Positions 2,684 to 13,111 of a DNA stretch of 64,000 bases are shown here, in pieces. Position 1 is the stretch's first letter. Each line of letters begins with the position of its first letter. Both the position numbers and the translations under genes were made by a program. The DNA is from Halichondria panicea. Taxonomy: Eukaryota > Porifera > Demospongiae > Suberitida > Halichondriidae. The stretch lies in contig NC_087386.1 in NCBI RefSeq assembly GCF_963675165.1, positions 5,839,566 to 5,903,565 on the forward strand, in the 5' to 3' direction. Below the pieces are notes generated by a model. The model saw only the letters and a program-made list of their open reading frames with translations. It had not been told where the DNA came from and made no database searches.

Positions 2684-2691
2684 TACAAGAT
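2684..2691. repeat. 8-bp target-site duplication, left copy
   Basis: TACAAGAT stands immediately before the left TIR and again immediately after the right TIR (11484-11491). Removing the element and one copy restores a kinase start in frame with genes B and C (MATRS-RSD against MATRSD). Confidence 0.95.
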
Positions 2692-2797
2692 ACAAGTGGC
2701 TAAATGCAGTACGTTAGCCTGTGTAGAAAGGGTTAAAATGACCGTGAATCTCATTATAATTGCACCGTAGCTAGCCTAGGGGGCGGCTAATAATAAT
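2692..2797 (+). repeat. Left terminal inverted repeat (106 bp)
   Basis: It is identical to the reverse complement of 11378-11483 over all 106 bases. After a small indel the match resumes in GTGTCGCGCAGTCCAGCG on the inner side, so the true inverted repeat extends into the arrays. Confidence 0.95.
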
Positions 2798-2825
2798 ATT
2801 ATCACGAATACGCTGTGTCGCGCAG

Positions 2826-3985
2826 TCCAGCGAGTCCTGGCCCTGAGGAGCCCTGAGGAGTCCTGGGAGTCTGGAGAGTCCTGCGAGTCCTGCGAGTCTG
2901 GAGAATCTGGAGAGTCCGGAGAGCCCTGAGAGTCCTGGGAGTCTGGAGAGTCCGGAGAGTCCTGAGAGTCTGGAGAGTCCTGAGAGTCTGGAGAGTCTAG
3001 CGAGTCCTGAGAGTCTGGAGAATCTGGAGATTCCTGAGAGTCTGGAGAGCCCTGGGAGTCTGGAGAGTCTGGCGAGTCCGGAGAGTCTGGAGAGCCCTGA
3101 GAGTCCTGAGAGTCTGGAGAGTCCTGCGAGTCTGGCAAGTCCTGAGAGTCTGGCGAGTCTGGAGAGCCCTGGGAGTCTGGAGAGTCTGGCGAGTCCTTAG
3201 AGTCCTGCGAGTCTGGAGAGTCCTGAGAGTCTGGCAAGTCCTGAGAGTCCTGAGAGTCTGGGAGTCCTGAGAGTCCGGAGAGCCCTGAGTGTCCTGAGAG
3301 TCCTGCGAGTCTGGAGAGTCCTGCGAGTCTAGCTATAGTCCGGAGAGTCTAGCGAGTCCTGAGAGTCCTGAGAGTCCCGAGAGTCTGGAGAGTCTAGCGA
3401 GTCCTGAGAGTCTGGAGAGTCTTGAGAGTCCTGAGAGTCTGGAGAGCCCTGGGAGTCTGAAGAGTCTGGCGAGTCCGGAGAGTCCGGAGAGTCTGGAGAG
3501 CCCTGAGAGTCCTGAGAGTCTGGAGAGTCCTGCGAGTCTGGCAAGTCCTGAGAGTCTGGCGAGTCTGGAGAGCCCTGGGAGTCTGGAGAGTCTGGCGAGT
3601 CCTGAGAGTCCTGCGAGTCTGGAGAGTCCTGAGAGTCTGGCAAGTCCTGAGAGTCCTGAGAGTCTGGGAGTCCTGAGAGTCCGGAGAGCCCTGAGTGTCC
3701 TGAGAGTCCTGCGAGTCTAGAGAGTCTGGAGAGTCCTGCGAGTCTGGAGAGTCTGGAGAGTCCTGCGAGTCTAGCTATAGTCCGGAGAGTCCTGAGAGTC
3801 CTGAGAGCCCTGAGAGTCCCGAGAGTCCCGAGAGTCCTGAGAGTCTGGAGAGTCTAGTGAGTCCGGAGAGTCTGGAGAGTCCTGAGAGTCTGGAGAGTCT
3901 GGAGAGTCCGGAGAGTCTGGAGAGTCCGGAGAGTCCGGAGAGTCTGGAGAGTCTGGAGAGTCTAGCGAGTCTGCTGAGTCGAGTT
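2826..3985. repeat. Left subterminal 9-bp tandem array
   Basis: About 1.15 kb of degenerate 9-mers such as GAGAGTCTG, GAGAGTCCT and GCGAGTCTG, in the region of 125 units. Blocks of several units are themselves repeated (for example around 3030-3290 and 3440-3700). Long open frames across it (Asp-Ser-Pro-Asp-Ser-Gln on the minus strand) follow from the 9-bp period and need not be genes. It probably serves as a transposase-binding platform. Confidence 0.9.
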
Positions 3986-4119
3986 AGTCTTATAATTAAA
4001 TTTGTCAATTCAATGCATGCATGGTAGAACGTAACGACAACAGATTGATTATAACAAAACAACACATTTCGTGCACTTATATATAATTTAGCGCACTGAA
4101 TAATATTCAACCAGTATTG

Positions 4120-7100
4120 TTAGTAAATATTGTTCCCCTTGCAAAGTCTTTTGGAAAAAGGAGGCACAATAGTCGAGGATCTTGTAGCACGTTTCTTGTC
4201 CCCATCATCGACAGATCCATCAGTAGATGTACCGTCTGTTTCAGTCAGTGATGTTGTTACAGTAGCATGTTTCTTGTCCCCATCGACAGCTTCTGTTTCA
4301 GTAGTTAAGCCTGGCCCACTGTTTTCCTCTTCCTCACTGCATGGAGTTTTTTCAGCCACTTCCAGCCCACACTTAATTACTTCAGCCAATGGAGTCTCAG
4401 GGTCGGTCACTGCGTGTGTACACAATGTTTATTCTGTGACACTGATACTATAAACAAAATAGGTAAAGACAAACTTACCCCTTCTAAGTACATCGTGAAG
4501 ATTTTTAGGAAGTTTGTTAAGAAAGATGTTGGCAGCTCTTACGCGATCACTTGTTTTCCTATTTATTAACGTCCCACTATGTTTGGTAGGATTCAGGAAA
4601 TCTTTGCTGTCCGTGCCTTTCCCCCACTCAAGTTGGTCGACAGCATTTCTAATTTCATCAAGGGAATGAGTAAATTTCAGCCCGTTGTGAGAAAGATGGA
4701 TTGCCACAACTTCTTGGTTGCTTACCATCAACCTTGTTCTGACAAAGGTGAGTACCTGTATATATATATGTATGTTACAGTGTATGCATATTATTATGTA
4801 AGAGTGCAAGCCATTCAGAGCACCAATATGAGTGGTTAGAAACACCTTTAATTAAGTAAACAGAAACCATGCAAGTGGAATTAGGTATCACCACAGCACA
4901 CTCAATTACTAACAGTATTATTACCTGTCTTATGACTTTTCCATTGCAGTACTCAAGCACTTCCCTGACTGTGTCAGTCACAACACTTTCAAGAGAACTA
5001 GTTTTGTCAGTACCTTCCTCAGTTGCAGTGCTATTTAGAGTTACACACGCCATTATTTCATTCTCCAGCTCATCCTTCCCACAGGCGCGTACCATCTTGA
5101 TTTCATGTATGGTTCAATAACAATCAACAAATGCGCACTAATTAATAAACTTACCTTGAATGTAAAGTAAAGAATAAGAGCCCAGCTTTGCGCTAGTCTG
5201 GGTTGTTCACTAAACTGAGGCAGCTGAAGGATCTGCTGCAAAATCCTCTCCACCTCTGCCTCTCCATCTTTTTCGAGGTCTTGTCTTAGAGAAATCACCC
5301 AGTGAAGAATGCCAGAAGGCGTTCCGTTAATGATTGAACTCTCTAAGTCACGTCTCGACTTTCTTTCCTCAACGGTAGAGGGACCAACTTTTGGCCTTCG
5401 GAAGGAAATTTCCACACATCTGCTCTTCACTCTGTGATTAAAGTTTAAAGTGCAGGTATAAATAGCTGTATATAATTATATGAAAATTGTGGTGTATAAC
5501 ATTCTAATTATGTACACACCTTGGATCATCCTTCAATTTGTCATTGGTTGCTATGACAGGTACAGACAGTGGAAGAAACGCACCACGACGCAAATTGGCT
5601 GTTTTAGCCGCTCCATGAAGGTCGACAATGAGCTTGACAACATCCAACTGCTTGCTGTGTGCAGTGGCCTCATCAATACCATATGGCATACACGAGAGGG
5701 CACTTCTTTCCATAAAATAAGCATTGGAACCTTCAACGTAAAAGGTATCTTTGGCCATCCCAAAAATACTCAGGGCAGCCTTTAGAGCAGTTGACTTGCC
5801 AGTCTCAGTTGGTCCGACAGCAAGCACAATTGGAAATCCTCCATACTTCGCAGCAATGTGGGTGTAGTGACAAGACATTATGGTTCCACCAAGAACAAGG
5901 AGAGCACGCGGATAATTGTGCTTGGTGGCTATCTGTAGGCCGTCGAGGAGATCCTTCAAAGGTTCCATTGAGCTGCTTTGGATGGAAAGTTTCGGCACAA
6001 GCTCATTGAAGCTGACTTTGTCACACTGTGCCATTATGCAATTGGGTGACCACACATAGGGACTTTCCGTTGCAGATATGCACTCTCCGTTAGACTTGAT
6101 ATGGATGTCATCACCAAACACCCATACATCGCTACCAGGCTGGCATCCTATAACGGTGGTTCCCTTGGAGATCTTAATTTCCGAAGCATGCTCTCGTTTG
6201 AGAAACTGGAGAAATCTGGTGAGTTCGGAGTCTGAAAAAGCACAGTTTAGTAGCATATTGCATTGGTAGCACGTCCTGCATGTGCTCTAAAACAATAATA
6301 TTTTTCTGCACACATGACAGTAGAAAAATGATGTGAGAAAACTATGCTCTGGTGATATCAGATATCCCACAGTCACAACTTCAGCCTATTGTTGGAACCA
6401 CAACTATACTTATTTGTGGGTTCCAAACTCTACATTTTTAATATCATTTATATAGGCACATGGCTGAGCTATAAGTCAGTGGAAAGTATGTTTTAATAAT
6501 TTTTATTGCACTATAATGGAAAATGGAAATACCCATGCAGTTGACCAGCTATAATTATACAAATCCCTCAAAGATAAAGTATGTATACATACAAGATGTA
6601 TGCAGTATATTATACAGATTGAGGTATTGCACACCCATGCACTTAACAAGCTACAAGGTGTGTCACATGTGCTGTAATTAACTGTATATAGTTAGAGGGA
6701 GGGTTAGATGTACCTGCTAACACCATCCATTTCGCGTTTCACTTCACAGTAAAACCCAGTCAATTCTCTCGCTTCCACTAGTGTCTTCAGCCTGATTGCA
6801 AAATCACACATGGCCTTATCTTCTCCTTTTGCTGATTTCCCAGCAGTTCCGAGTTCCCAATTAATAAAAAATTCTCCCTTTCCAGAATCCTGAAAGAATA
6901 TACATGCAGCACAATAATTAAACTGAATTTTCTCAAACTGCATGTGGCTTCAACAATTAATATGTGCAATGAAATGTGAGCTCTGCATGCTCACCTGTGA
7001 GCTTGTGGAATTAGAATCCCCGAAAATACTACTGCTGTCTCCATCAGTCTCTCGTGATGCACACATGGTTATATGGCACAATGATACAATGATGAGCTTG

Positions 7101-7132
7101 TTCTTCGAACTGGTTCTTCTTTGGAACAACAA
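4120..7132 (-). CDS. Transposon-encoded P-loop ATPase (seven exons)
   Basis: Exons I can join by GT-AG and phase are 6995-7132, 6714-6889, 5520-6275, 5155-5431, 4925-5095, 4479-4755 and 4120-4409, about 694 codons. The small introns are 59-105 bp. The third exon holds a Walker A (GPTETGKS, after GGFPIVLAV), followed by GIDEAT as a possible Walker B and VPVIATND as a sensor-like strand. The layout resembles DUF927/primase-helicase-type ATPases, but I cannot place it in a named family with confidence. The C-terminus is acidic and Ser/Thr-rich with KKRATRSS and SKRLCKG, possible nuclear signals. The start is uncertain: M at 7132 or at 7066. It is divergent from the transposase, with about 147 bp between. 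It may help target choice or strand transfer. Confidence 0.75.
6276..6713 (-). other. Longest intron of the ATPase gene
   Basis: This 438-bp AT-rich stretch sits between the second and third ATPase exons. Boundaries read GTACAT at the donor and CATGCAG at the acceptor on the minus strand, and they preserve phase (VSR|TCYQCN). I see no coding signal inside. Confidence 0.6.
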
Positions 7133-7278
7133 TTAGGTACTCGCAGCGAAATTAATACTTAATTGATGATTACGCGCATGTGCTGTACATAATTACAGTC
7201 TATAATAGCCTGAACAAGCGGGAGAAGTCTCAACAAAATCATAGTTTGCTCTGTGTATAATATTCTGGATTTGGCTCA
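7133..7278. promoter_or_regulatory. Internal bidirectional promoter of the transposon
   Basis: About 146 bp lie between the divergent ATPase and transposase starts. No other promoter-like interval exists between the two genes, so both are probably driven from here. I see no motif I can name. Confidence 0.4.
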
Positions 7279-9956
7279 ATGTCGCTCTATATTTGCAAGT
7301 CTTGCTCAAGCAGTTATGCACACAGCAGTAGTCTAGCTCGACATGTAAGGAAGCAACACAGAGAAAAGGCTCTAGGGAAGAGTCTAGATCTGACCCAAGA
7401 AATCTCTTCACAAGAAACATCAGAAATTGGATATATCTGCTGTATTACTTGTGACTCCAGGTTAGATCGATTGAATACTTAATGGCACATGATTACACAG
7501 ATCATGCAACTGCAACTTCCACATTATTATTAGTTTCTTTCTTACAGATTTCGTTTCGTACAAGAGTTAATCCAACATCTAACACAAGCTCACGAAACAA
7601 CTGTTTATACAGAGAAACATGAGTTTTCTGGCTTTTCAGAGTTTTTAAGATGGAAGGAGGGTGAAGAAACTCGAACCTGCACACAGTATGTGCAGCCGTG
7701 TGGATCCCGTGTCCGCTGTGGAGTACGTACTTGGTACTACTATTGTAACAGATCAGGAAAATCTAGATCAACCACAAAAGGCCTCAGAAATTCGAAGTTG
7801 CAGGGCTCGGAAAAATTAGGTGTCTACTGTACAGCTCACCTAATTGTAAGTCAGCACACAGGAGGAAATGTGCTGGTTAACTTTTGTTCCACGCATTATG
7901 GCCACACTCCAGAAGAAGATGTAATGCATTTACGACTCCCTAAGGACTTCAAGCTAGCTGTATTCAACAAACTGTTGCAAGGGGTGACGATAGATCGAAT
8001 TCTAGATGACATTAGAGACAGTGTCGATGAAGGTGGCCTGAAACGGTGTCATCATAGCACAAAAAAAGATATCCAGAATATCAAAAGAGTGTGCAATGTG
8101 GATGGAGTACAAAAGCACTCAAACGACTACACAAGTGTTGCTGCATGGGTCGAAGAGCTGAAAAGCATGGAATTTTGTCCAGTTATTGCTTTCAAACCGC
8201 AAGGGGTGTCTAGTGAAAGAGAAGGTGTGAAAGACAACGATTTTTTGTTGGCACTTCAAACCCAGTTTCAGCTCGAGATGATGAAAGCTTTTGGAGGAAA
8301 TGTAATTTGTGTAGATGCCACCCATTCAACTAATTATTACGAATACCTGCTGGTAACTGTTATGGTAGTTGACGATTTTGGGGAAGGAATTCCAGTTGCG
8401 TGGGCTATAACTACACGAGAAGACACTTGTATGCTGGCCTATTTTTTCCTAGAATTAAGGAAAAGAACTGGTCCCCTTTCCACACAAGTGTTCATGTCAG
8501 ATGATGCGACGCAGTACTGGAGTGCTTGGACAGCTGCGTACAGCAGTATCAACACCACAAAACTGCTGTGTGCCTGGCACGTAGATCGTGCTTGGAGAAA
8601 AGCTCTTAAGGAGCGTATTCCTCTCAATGAAAATCGAATTGACGTATATCACCATTTGAGAACTTTACTGACAGAACTGCAACCTGACAAATTCCGAAGT
8701 TTGTTGCAGAAATTTATCAAATTGTCACCCACAATTTTGCTCTTACTTTCAAAGAAATTACACGCCAAGGGTGGAAGAGTGGGCAACCTGTTACAGAATA
8801 GGCAAGTTTGTGAACACAAACATGTATTTGGAATCTTTTCATCGAGTACTGAAAATTGTGTATCTAGAAGGAAAGAAGAATCGACGACTTGATCAACTTA
8901 TACATATTCTTTTGAAGCTTGCTCGTAATAAGGCCTTTGAACAAGTACAAAAAGTTCATAAAGGGAAAACAACTTATCGTATTAATGAAATAAATCGAAG
9001 GCACAAAGAAAGTTCTAAGATGATTTCTGAAGGCTGTCATCTCCAATCGATTTCAAACAAAGAATGGAAGATAAGTTCTCAGACAACCTCCGGAAGAATG
9101 TACACTGTTCATTTGGAGAATCAGTCCTGTCCTTTCTCTTGCAAACTGAGGTGCGCAGCATGTGATGTATGCATCCACATGTACAATTGTTCATGTGTTG
9201 ACTCGGTTGTACATACTACAATATGTAAACACATCCATGCTACATGCTTTCTGGCCAAATCCACGAACAATGCAACAAGTGCATGCAGACTCAGCCACTG
9301 AAAGTCATTCTTTAACTACAGCTTCAGACAAAACGGATAGGTCAGAGATTTCTAATTCTATAGATGATTTATCAGGCTCAGACATTTCTCCTGAAATAAG
9401 CACTGAGGAATCGAGACAAAAAGCTATTTCCCTCATTAATGATCCTACACACTTAAGTACCATCCTCTCCAATGCTGGAGGTCAAATTGATATGCTGAAG
9501 AAAAGTGCATTTGATCATTTGCACCAGTTGCACACTCTACTCACATCTTCTGACAGTAATGATGCAGTTCGAAGTGTCACTGAGCATATCAAAAGCGGTA
9601 TTAATGTTCTTAAGGCATATGAAACAAGGAAAGAGCATCCCACCTTACCAATCAAAAGCCGTTCTTCACCTAATGCGCTTAATGAAACTCAAATCAGATT
9701 CCAGTCAATAAAGAACAAGAGGCCGCGACATACAGGGATTGCTAAACTGTCAGTTGCTGCTATGGCTAACTGTAAAGAAAATCTGTCTAAAGTGGACATT
9801 AATGTATGTGTTGTTTGCTACAAAGAAGATGACAGGCAATATGGTACATCTGATCGAGTTCATTGGGCTCAATGTTCGAAGTGCAATCTGTGGCTCCACA
9901 CTTTGTGTGGGAGACCTGTAAACGAAAACTCTTTTCTCTGTAACCTTTGTACATAG
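7279..9956 (+). pseudogene. C2H2-DDE-SWIM-PHD transposase with two frameshifts
   Basis: Exon 1 (7279-7460) and exon 2 (from 7548) are joined across an 87-bp GT-AG intron. The join completes a second C2H2 finger (CITCDSRF...H...H) after the first (CKSCSSSY...H...H). The RNase-H-like DDE core follows: D in CVDATHSTN (about residue 317), D in FMSDDATQYW (about 379), CAWH (about 402-405), and E in NTNMYLESFH. Next come a SWIM finger (C-S-C...C-K-H, 9188-9232), a linker, and a C-terminal C4HC3 PHD finger (about 9805-9955). The reading frame shifts near 8767-8771 (one surplus G in AAGGGTGG) and again between about 9240 and 9300. These are either mutations or base-calling errors. The core resembles MULE and vertebrate ZSWIM1/3 proteins. 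Confidence 0.85.
7461..7547 (+). other. Transposase intron 1 (87 bp)
   Basis: The donor is CCAG|GTTAGA and the acceptor TTCTTACAG|ATTTC. Splicing joins D-S-R to F-R-F and completes a second C2H2 zinc finger, which supports the intron strongly. Confidence 0.85.
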
Positions 9957-10091
9957 TAAATACATGTCTGAAAAAAAATAATAATATATCTTTTCTGATC
10001 AAAACCATTTATTATGAAATTATTATGTGCTTGTGATATACAATCATGATTAGAATTCATAGTACTCTACTCTATAGAGAACACTATAGCA

Positions 10092-11365
10092 GACTCTAGA
10101 CTTTCAGAACACGCTAAACTCTCTGGACTCTCATCATTATCTAGGACTTACCAGACTCTCAGGACTCTCAGGACTCGCTAGACTCTCCGGACTCTCAGGA
10201 CTCTCCGGACTCGCTAGACTCTCCAGACTTGCTAGACTCTCCAGACTCTCCGGATTCTCCAGACTCTCCGGACTCTCCGGACTCGCCAGACTCTTAGGAC
10301 TCGCCAGACTCTCAGGACTCGCCAGACTCTCCGGACTCGCTAGACTCTCCAGACTCTCCAGACTCTCAGGACTCTCAGGACTCCCTGGACTCTCAGGACT
10401 CCCTGGACTCTCCAGACTCTCCAGACTCTCAAACTCTCAGGACTCTCCAGACTCTCCAGTCTCTCAGGACTCGCTAGACTCTCAGGACTCTCAAGACTCT
10501 CCAGACTCTCAGGGCTCGCTAGACTCCAGACTCTCCAGACTCTCAGGACTCGCCAGACTCTCAGGACTCTCCGGACTCGCCAGACTCTCAGGACTCGCTA
10601 GACTCTCAGGACTCGCCAGACTCTCAGGACTCTTAGGACTCGCCAGACTCTCAGGACTCGTCAGACTCTCCGGACTCCCTAGACTCTCCAGGCTCTCCAG
10701 ACTCTCGTGACTCGCTAGACTTTCAGGACTCTCAAGACTCTCCAGTCTCTCAGGACTCGCTAGACTCTCAGGACTCTCAAGACTCTCAGGGCTCGCTACA
10801 CTCTCCAGACTCTCAGGACTCTCAAGACTCTCCAGACTCTCAGGACTCGCTAGACTCCAGACTCTCCAGACTCTCAGGACTCTCAAGACTCTCAGGGCTC
10901 GCTAGACTCTCCAGACTCTCAGGACTCTCCAGACTCTCCAGTCTCTCAGGACTCGCTAGACTCTCAGGACTCTCAAGACTCTCCAGTCTCTCAGGACTCG
11001 CTAGACTCTCAGGACTCTCAAGACTCTCAGGGCTCTCCAGACTCCATCCAGACTCTCAGGACTCTCAAGACTCTCAGGGCTCGCTAGACTCTCCAGACAC
11101 TCCAGACTCTCAGGACTCGCCAGACTCGCAGGACTCTCCAGACTCTCAGGGCTCGCTAGACTCTCCAGACTCTCCAAACTCTCCAGTCTCTCAGGACTCG
11201 CAAGACTCTCAGGGCTCTCAGGGCTCTCCAGACTCCATCCAGACTCTCAGGACTCTCAAGACTCTCAGGGCTCGCTAGACTCTCCAGACTCTCAGGACTC
11301 TCAGGACTTGCCAGACTCGCAGGTCTCTTAAGACTCTCCAGACTCTCCAGACTCGCTGGACTGCG
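10092..11365. repeat. Right subterminal 9-bp tandem array
   Basis: This is the mirror image of the left array: pyrimidine-rich on the plus strand, with units such as CTCTCAGGA, CTCTCCAGA and CTCGCTAGA. It is about 1.27 kb and is followed directly by CGCTGGACTGCGCGACAC, the complement of the left inner end. It makes the effective inverted repeat more than 1 kb long. Confidence 0.9.
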
Positions 11366-11377
11366 CGACACATTATA

Positions 11378-11483
11378 ATTATTATTAGCCGCCCCCTAGG
11401 CTAGCTACGGTGCAATTATAATGAGATTCACGGTCATTTTAACCCTTTCTACACAGGCTAACGTACTGCATTTAGCCACTTGT
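11378..11483 (-). repeat. Right terminal inverted repeat (106 bp)
   Basis: A perfect reverse complement of 2692-2797. It is followed immediately by TACAAGAT, the second target-site duplication (11484-11491), and then by the kinase A coding sequence. Confidence 0.95.
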
Positions 11484-11996
11484 TACAAGATCAAGAAGTG
11501 ACCTTGATGCTCTGGTGGTCCAGGTGGAAGGATTGAATCTAGAGGAGAACAAAGCTGGCTCAGGGGCTTATGGCTGTGTCTTTAGAGTGACGGTGAATGG
11601 AAGACACTGCATTGCTAAGAAGCTCCACTCCATATTGCTCCAAGAGCGATCCCTTGGACAGAGGGGGAACATTGTGACAAAGTTCAGAAATGAATGTCAT
11701 ATTCTGAGTGTTTTACATCACCCCAACATAGTCGGTTTCATTGGAGTCCATTACGGCCGCGATAAGAACGACATCAGTCTAATAATGGAGAGGCTTCATT
11801 CTGACTTGGCTGATTTCGTTGAAACCCATCGAGACACGAATATCGCCACTAGAATCCATATCCTGTATGATGTAACCAAAGGCCTTCACTATCTCCACTG
11901 TCTGACCCCTCCCCTCATCCATCGTGACCTCACTGCTCCCAACATCCTGCTCACTGAGGACCTCACTGCCAAGATTGGAGACCTGGGTGTCTCCAG

Positions 11997-12112
11997 GTAT
12001 GTTTGTTTGTTTGTTTGCAACAAAGGAAACTGTTGTTTTTTAGAGACAAAATGAGAATTACTTAATGTGGGAAAACAAAGGCAGAAATGTAAAAACTAAT
12101 GTTCATTTGCAG
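11997..12112 (+). other. Kinase intron present in A and C, absent in B
   Basis: This is a 116-bp intron. CAGGTATGT occurs at both its edges (TCCAGGTATGTTTG and TTGCAGGTATGTGG). Gene B reads CCAGGTATGTGG straight through at the same codon. Gene C has a 113-bp version at 46655-46767. Confidence 0.85.
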
Positions 12113-13111
12113 GTATGTGGATCTGGAGAGATTGACTCACGTTCTGACGAATATCCCGGGAAATCCAACCTACATGCCTCCCGAGTGTCATGTGGAGCCA
12201 CCCACCTACACTACCAAGCTGGACATCTTCTCATTCGGTCATCTCATCATTCACACTCTTATCGGTGATTTCCCTAAAGTCTCTTACTTTACTCCTGAGG
12301 TTATCAAGCACGTGGATGATGGGAAGATGGAGCTGATGCGTCGAAGCACTGCTGTCCATGGTGACAAAATGGGGGAGAAACACGCTCTTTATCCTCTTGT
12401 TGTTAGCTGCCTCCATGACCGACCTCAACAGAGACCATCAATTGACGAAGTGATTGTCTCACTCAGAAAGCTGTGTCTACAGCACCCCAGGATGGTACGT
12501 GAGTGAGTGGGTGGAGGTATCAAATGTGCATTGTCAGCTTATATAGTGTTAGTGTCGACTGTATGGTACTTCTGTGTGTGTGGCTATAGAATCTTGAACA
12601 GTATATAACACGTACATACAATTTTTATCATTCCATCTTTTGGGTGTGTTTTACTGATAATGTATTTTCTCCCAGGCATTTCTGGATGCTTGTAAGACGG
12701 GTGATGTGGGTGTGGTTCTGGAGCTACTGAAGTGTGGGGCTGATCCCAACCAGGCAGACAAGGTGAGGGGAATACTGTCTACAGTGCCAATATGTCCGTT
12801 GGTTGATGATATTGTCTCTACAGAATGATGCAACTGCTCTTTACTGGGCCAGTGACAAGGGACATGATGAGATAGTGAGGGTCCTCTTAGCAGCCAAGGC
12901 TACAGTCAACACTCAGACCAAGGTTGGTTTTGTTGTACAAACACATTTCCCACAACATGCTGTTTACATTGTTTTCCTCCTATATACAGTCGGGACAGAC
13001 CCCTCTTTGGACAGCCAGTTTCTATGGTCACCAGAAATGTATCGAGCTCCTAATTGATGCTGGGGCCAATGTTGATGTACCCAAAGGGGTGAGTGTAAGT
13101 AGCTGTACACA

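Follow-up and report, generated by a model that had tools for sequence, protein, structure and literature searches.

A Mutator-like transposon of the sponge Halichondria panicea with repeat-array ends and a probable primase-helicase-type ATPase

A eukaryotic cut-and-paste transposon is generally considered to require hardly more than a transposase and its own ends. In the window analysed here, a stretch of 64,000 nucleotides from the genome of the sponge Halichondria panicea (NC_087386.1, positions 5,839,566 to 5,903,565), an element bounded by terminal inverted repeats (TIRs) at 2692-11483 encodes an ATPase beside its transposase and has long arrays of 9-bp repeats inside both ends, which raises the question of what kind of ATPase this is and what it could do for the element. 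We found that the element is almost certainly a two-gene transposon of the Mutator-like element (MULE) superfamily, with ends resembling those of Rehavkus and foldback elements. Judging from its relatives, the ATPase is very probably of the primase-helicase type, akin to the DUF927-type helicase region of cyanobacterial plasmid primase-polymerases and more weakly to phage primases. MULE transposases, foldback-like arrays and accessory open reading frames (ORFs) are kinds of feature that are already known; what is new is an ATPase of helicase type that recurs beside different transposases.

Exon models of both genes were built from the DNA sequence, with start codons inferred. The full ATPase model was read in a single copy of the element (C2b; in each of the other six copies one of the motifs that place the exons was not found) and has an open frame of 692 amino acids (aa) in seven exons, with GT-AG borders at all six introns. 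A Walker A motif, GPTETGKS (5792-5815, minus strand), was read from the sequence of the central exon. Pfam gave weak matches to DUF927 (PF06048), with E-values of 0.0028 for the window ATPase and 2.3e-4 for that of another family, F, and PHROGs gave a primase/helicase at 2e-4. DUF927 domains are predicted helicases, and a staphylococcal one is cited as proven (PMC5862659). When the ATPases of families A and F were searched with tblastn against 72,556 plasmid records at E-values up to 1, the sole record found by either was the same plasmid primase-polymerase from Gloeothece (2e-5 and 3e-7, respectively). The spliced 692-aa protein matched two records only in the whole plasmid collection, from Nostoc (8e-12) and Gloeothece (1e-6). 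In a set of three cyanobacterial sequences it aligned over residues 36-477 with Nostoc (9e-18), 40-562 with Gloeothece (1e-12) and 52-502 with Symplocastrum (8e-12), a related region of about 440-520 residues. Alignment with hhalign of three eukaryote ATPases (window family, A and F) to the three cyanobacterial ones had a probability of 99.6 over 288 columns, and four unrelated control pairings all stayed below 0.5. Among phages, six records were matched at E-values up to 0.1, three of them Vibrio phages at 5e-7 and the other three at 0.03-0.04.

Of the prokaryotic relatives, Prim-Pol was present in those of Gloeothece and Symplocastrum, the Nostoc relative had no Pfam match, and Toprim_2 was matched by two phage proteins, one above and one below the cut-off. 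No primase domain was found in the Pfam scan of the element's own ATPase. A scan of a contig collection with the Gloeothece domain gave 16 pattern matches, one of which was a relative, and the Pfam DUF927 model gave no match in the sponge genome and a match in one of 14 control genomes. The spliced ATPase had no match in the PDB; with a nine-row ATPase alignment a single row was returned, the pilus ATPase PilB, at an E-value of 0.89.

The transposase model, from copy C2a, joins two exons into an open frame of 865 aa, and by eye the splice completes a second C2H2-like finger; as the full ATPase model comes from C2b, no single copy has been shown with both full models. Pfam detected the MULE domain PF10551 (1.6e-11, above cut-off, at about 8302-8583) and a ZSWIM1/3 RNaseH-like domain (5.7e-11). 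The D, D and E positions and the C-x-W-H motif were invariant in all four aligned transposases (window family, A, D and E). The transposase had been described from the sequence as a DDE/SWIM/PHD protein, and the MULE/ZSWIM-type DDE part of that description was borne out, while the SWIM-like motif was seen by eye and had no match in the Pfam scans, and the PHD-like finger was weak (Pfam PHD, 0.11). Together with the MULE-type DDE domain, the TIRs and duplications within the range of 8-11 bp (one copy has none) agree with a MULE. An affinity of this transposase with Zisupton/KDZ elements was not supported, since the duplications are mostly 9 bp and Pfam gave MULE and no KDZ, at E-values up to 1 in one scan and up to 0.01 in another. 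Viral relatives of the transposase were also sought, and the viral-contig scan gave eight pattern matches, none of which was confirmed. Exon 2 of the transposase had no match in the PDB.

The anatomy of the element agreed with the original prediction of a single transposon with perfect 106-bp TIRs, mirror-image 9-bp arrays of more than 1 kb each and two divergent spliced genes, and the coordinates were exact (Table 1). Between the arrays lie the ATPase gene and then the transposase gene. The arrays, 1.1-1.2 kb each, are alike in motif and period: read from the outside inwards they had lag-9 autocorrelations of 0.74 and 0.73, and AGAGTC and GAGAGT were the commonest two 6-mers in both. The left array is downstream of the ATPase gene, with 0.16 kb between the stop (4120) and the inner edge of the array (3962). 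Rfam at gathering scores gave no matches within the window.

Table 1. Coordinates of the element and its parts in the window
Feature	Position	Strand	Remark
Left target-site duplication TACAAGAT	2684..2691		8 bp in window copy
Left TIR, 106 bp	2692..2797	+	perfect match to right end
Left array, ~124 units x 9 bp, AGAGTC-type core	2842..3962	+	
ATPase exon 7, C-terminal	4120..4409	-	
ATPase exon 6	4479..4755	-	
ATPase exon 5	4925..5095	-	
ATPase exon 4	5155..5431	-	similar open frame in family A
ATPase exon 3, central; 5' end deleted in window copy	5520..6242	-	weak DUF927
ATPase exon 2	6714..6889	-	similar open frame in family A
ATPase exon 1, proposed start	6995..7066	-	putative start codon
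Transposase exon 1, C2H2-like finger	7279..7460	+	putative start codon
Transposase exon 2: MULE DDE domain, SWIM-like motif, C-terminal PHD-like finger	7548..9956	+	
Right array, ~134 units x 9 bp, mirror of left	10153..11354	-	
Right TIR, 106 bp	11378..11483	-	
Right target-site duplication TACAAGAT	11484..11491		8 bp

Searching the 131-Mb genome with the TIR gave 17 rows, 14 of which belong to seven long TIR-bounded copies and three to two remnants, a single degraded end (C12:3232496) and a 67-bp end-to-end structure made solely of two TIR ends (C16:1621032-1621098, two rows). This 67-bp remnant is flanked by the 8-bp repeat GAAAATGA. The predicted 8-bp target duplication holds for the window copy (TACAAGAT), but the family mostly has 9 bp (perfect in five of the seven copies), and no duplication was seen at C7:2254075. 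It had been asked whether the two genes travel together, with same-TIR copies that never carry the ATPase named as contrary evidence; all seven long copies keep the ATPase gene, including one that has lost 1.15 kb of the transposase, and the divergent pair is also found in other families.

The window copy itself is damaged in both genes. A transposase frameshift near 8715 in exon 2 is common to four of the seven copies, and the window copy alone has a deletion of 115 bp at about 6242, by which the central ATPase exon loses its 5' end and falls 117 nt short within a reference stretch of 855 nt. As the damaged copies share one frameshift, they seem to have been mobilised by other copies. Transposase exon 2 is open in two copies (C2a and C8), and the central ATPase exon region is open across all 855 nt in five of seven, with a 1-bp deletion in another. 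Among pairs having at least four differences, the nonsynonymous/synonymous ratio of transposase exon 2 was 0.18-0.33 in the nine listed pairs that leave out copy C7a. The six pairs that include C7a, with its 1.15-kb deletion, gave 0.67-1.25; the ATPase ratio of 0.29 comes from one pair with at least four changes.

A divergent ATPase and transposase pair recurs in two further families with a MULE transposase and in two with an unclassified putative transposase. When the whole genome was searched, the window ATPase gave 37 rows, the family A ATPase 31 and the transposase 27; ATPase rows at C10:4075268, C13:4146666, C7:4149093 and C1:9053769, on C3 and further rows on C1 lie outside the families that were read. 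The ATPases of families A, B/C, I and F differ by 57-75% from one another and from that of the window (B vs C, 18%). Family A (C12:1777432-1789279) has its own TIRs, a 9-bp duplication TTCTTTTTG and mirrored arrays with periods of 20 and 10, and shares 39% (ATPase) and 38% (transposase) amino acid identity with the window family; a fragment of it, 92% identical, lies on C17. Family B/C consists of two decayed copies (C10 and C15), which have a degenerate array on the transposase side (best short period 8, autocorrelation 0.41-0.44). By eye, a Gypsy-like retroelement (L013, about 3911-8950) is nested between the transposase and ATPase genes of the decayed copy on C15.

Family I (C1:4676580-4690570, 14 kb) has TIRs of about 65 bp at 94% identity, an 8-bp duplication GGAAATTT, mirrored 8-bp arrays totalling more than 5 kb and the ATPase. 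Its putative transposase, an ORF of 903 aa, shows D/D/E-like motifs by eye and matches no DDE family in Pfam; the tail of this ORF is OTU-like (Peptidase_C65, 0.002, below the cut-off). In family F (within C1:5238500-5255000) the ATPase is accompanied by a putative transposase that shares 39% identity with its family I counterpart. The tail of the family F protein has no Pfam match, and a 9-bp array follows its gene. For the MULE transposase against these two putative transposases hhalign gave a probability of 1.2, by which common ancestry is not shown. A P-element-like insert (Pfam TNP-like RNase H, 2.6e-24) lies between the two genes of family F, with inverted repeats at 4793-4825 and 9404-9435 of the joined stretch L018/L033.

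Further ATPases were found in less complete settings. Locus J has an ATPase and a 9-bp array on one side, with no transposase found in 17 kb, and locus K is a lone ATPase fragment in 9 kb. C17 also carries an ATPase piece close to that of family I, and at C8:3567704-3570497 an ATPase row lies, by its coordinates, among I-type transposase rows. The repeat G2, a possible element, occurs at eight places with 99-100% identity by a 0.7-kb probe (including L036, C8:4856500-4866499, and C1:16743500-16760500) and contains an ATPase, a KDZ fragment (Pfam 3.6e-5, under the cut-off) and a PHD finger; its ends were not found. KDZ transposases are common in the genome, where the KDZ model gave 59 rows. All of these are more than 20 kb away from the rows of the two ATPase searches, and they do not include the G2 fragment.

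Identity to the window transposase is 42-44% for C/B, 41% for D, 38% for A and 36% for E; identity to the window ATPase is 48% for fragment K, 46% for J, 43% for I, 39% for A, 30-32% for B/C and 29% for F. In approximately unbiased (AU) tests on the ATPase tree, a clade of I and F was rejected (p = 0.003), a single clade of the four MULE-type rows had p = 0.032, and the grouping of the window family with B/C was not rejected (p = 0.18). These groupings were tested once a first tree was known, and only three of ten inner branches are starred. As the ATPase and transposase lineages match poorly, these sequences suggest, but do not prove, that the ATPase has been exchanged between transposase types.

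As to what the ATPase does, we lean slightly towards the reading that a helicase of replication-initiator type, possibly acting on the iteron-like arrays, was recruited by a MULE whose ends are Rehavkus/foldback-like. The transposase, which has a MULE DDE domain, zinc-finger motifs and mostly 9-bp duplications, would cut and insert. The ATPase would be a helicase: like Rep and initiator helicases on iterons, it would assemble on the repeat arrays and open or locally replicate the element ends, allowing the element to be copied or repaired around transposition. Assembly on the arrays is proposed from the left array lying just past the ATPase stop and from the layout in Staphylococcus aureus pathogenicity islands (SaPIs), likened here by description, where short repeats are also found downstream of the helicase gene. 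In these islands Rep recognises a short-repeat origin directly downstream of its own gene, Cch carries DUF927 and is related to SaPIBov1 Rep, and Cch2 unwinding requires an iteron sequence (PMC7581432). It is likely that the ATPase serves the element rather than riding as a passenger; that it acts on the arrays is somewhat less likely than not. Five families have both the array and the ATPase (window family, A, B/C, I and F) and two have neither (D and E), an association with a Fisher p of 0.048.

Several results weigh against this reading. The eukaryote DUF927 scores are below the curated cut-off of 22.6 bits (window 17.8; family F, the best, 21.3), and the Gloeothece protein's own score of 17.1 bits is also below it. 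The family F ATPase matched no phage at E-values up to 1, the central ATPase exon of the window family matched just four phage records (0.08-0.2), and a structure model of the ATPase failed (pLDDT, a per-residue confidence score, of 32) and was not used. The MULE families D and E have neither an ATPase row nor a short-unit array (TRF score above 100), and the surroundings of a decayed MULE transposase on C11 are likewise free of ATPase rows, so the MULE transposase type is not always paired with the ATPase. Family D is 6.3 kb long with its own TIR, none of whose 12 rows is at an ATPase place, and its two places are one duplication; in family E no TIR was found in the 9.5 kb read. The repeat G2 has an ATPase and no 8-10-bp array in the stretches read, which makes the association of arrays and ATPase weak: the Fisher p is 0.107 once G2 is counted. 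The families in this test were picked post hoc; B/C, F and J each showed an array at just one side, and the B/C array is degenerate. The arrays of Rehavkus (PMC6446971) and Tm1 (PMC3169594) are described, in the parts of these papers used here, without such a helicase, so arrays need no helicase. The binding, unwinding and replication roles given to the ATPase are predictions.

In an alternative explanation, the transposase fingers would bind the arrays, and the ATPase, as an AAA+ protein, would regulate how targets are chosen or how the transpososome is taken apart, like TnsC, MuB or IstB. The original prediction drew this parallel with Tn7, Mu and IS21 as an analogy, and the layout of a transposase plus an ATPase, the C2H2-like fingers and the THAP domain of Galileo, which is reported to bind sites in long TIRs (PMC3688188), would be in line with it. 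However, the detectable relatives of the ATPase are primase-helicases, and TnsC, MuB and IstB were absent among its matches in NCBIfam, PHROGs and Pfam at E-values up to 0.1 (a direct comparison was not run). Families D and E share the transposase type, and neither an ATPase nor a short array was found in them, which leaves the reader of the arrays undecided. We consider such a regulator unlikely. Alternatively, slippage or gap repair that follows excision could have left the arrays behind as a by-product, as in foldback elements; nothing would then read them specifically, and the ATPase would aid repair or replication generally. Array length does vary from copy to copy, with gaps of 18, 27, 36 or 63 bp, the arrays of C10 and C2a differ at 2.2% of positions and their transposase exon 2 at 0.6%, and Tm1 has arrays and no described ATPase (PMC3169594). 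Yet in the three families with two arrays each (window family, A and I) the arms have their leading motifs and periods in common, with units that differ by family, and we regard a mere by-product as rather unlikely.

Within the 37 and 31 ATPase rows of this genome that were covered, it appears very unlikely that the ATPase is a captured host gene carried as a passenger, as in Pack-MULEs, even though gene capture by MULEs is on record (PMC6446971, PMC6431247) and ATPase rows without a transposase nearby were seen at loci J and K. A, B/C, I and F all show the divergent pairing, with ATPases as far apart as given above, and the central exon is open in most copies of the window family.

The reading of a recruited replication-type helicase can be set beside systems already described. 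Rehavkus, an outgroup of the MULEs, resembles the element in its 9-bp duplications, MULE-like DDE, PHD finger and minisatellite before the 3' TIR, but has one ORF, its minisatellite described on the 3' side and no ATPase mentioned in the extract used (PMC6446971). This likeness is by description; of the Rehavkus traits, the 9-bp duplication and the arrays are present here and the PHD finger is weak. Tm1, a Phantom-type MULE of root-knot nematodes, has duplications of 8-10 bp (mostly 9 bp) and foldback-like composite TIRs with tandem repeats at both ends; unlike the element it has a 496-aa transposase, units of 13-15 bp and, in the portion of the paper used, no second gene described (PMC3169594). 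MuDR-6_HM of Hydra is comparable by description to family I, as an OTU gene is listed for it, but in the same partial source it has no ATPase or array listed (PMC6446971). The word "ATPase" does not occur in the main text of that survey, in which a second, uncharacterised ORF is given for the MULE-Co group (PMC6446971). The element's ATPase resembles the DUF927-type primase-helicases of plasmids, the cyanobacterial ones over the region given above, and by description those of SaPIs and staphylococcal cassette chromosomes (SCC), but it has no primase domain in Pfam and its element moves by a DDE transposase. The Academ lineage AcademH belongs to another transposase superfamily and has duplications of 9 or 10 bp. 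It is, by description, likewise a eukaryote DNA transposon that encodes a helicase (PMC10045372). Among the titles and beginnings of abstracts searched, with Repbase and subscription papers outside the scope, there was no eukaryotic DNA transposon with a DUF927-type helicase.

If the reading is true, a recurrent ATPase of plasmid and phage replication type, apparently exchanged and often accompanied by iteron-like arrays, links these elements to bacterial replicons and offers a reason for foldback and minisatellite ends. Whether the ATPase reads the arrays and whether the element replicates become directly testable questions. More speculatively, and in our view improbably, there could be a modular class of eukaryotic transposons built around a Rep-like helicase derived from primase-helicases, with its own iteron arrays at the element ends. 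This helicase would have been combined with a minimum of two transposase kinds (MULE and the unclassified OTU-tailed one) and perhaps with a third (KDZ). It would drive replication that starts at these ends, which would make "cut-and-paste" elements partly self-replicating.

Next to the element, kinase-like open frames recognised by eye occupy 11476-12506 of the window; as they begin at its right end, the element may have inserted inside or beside a kinase gene.

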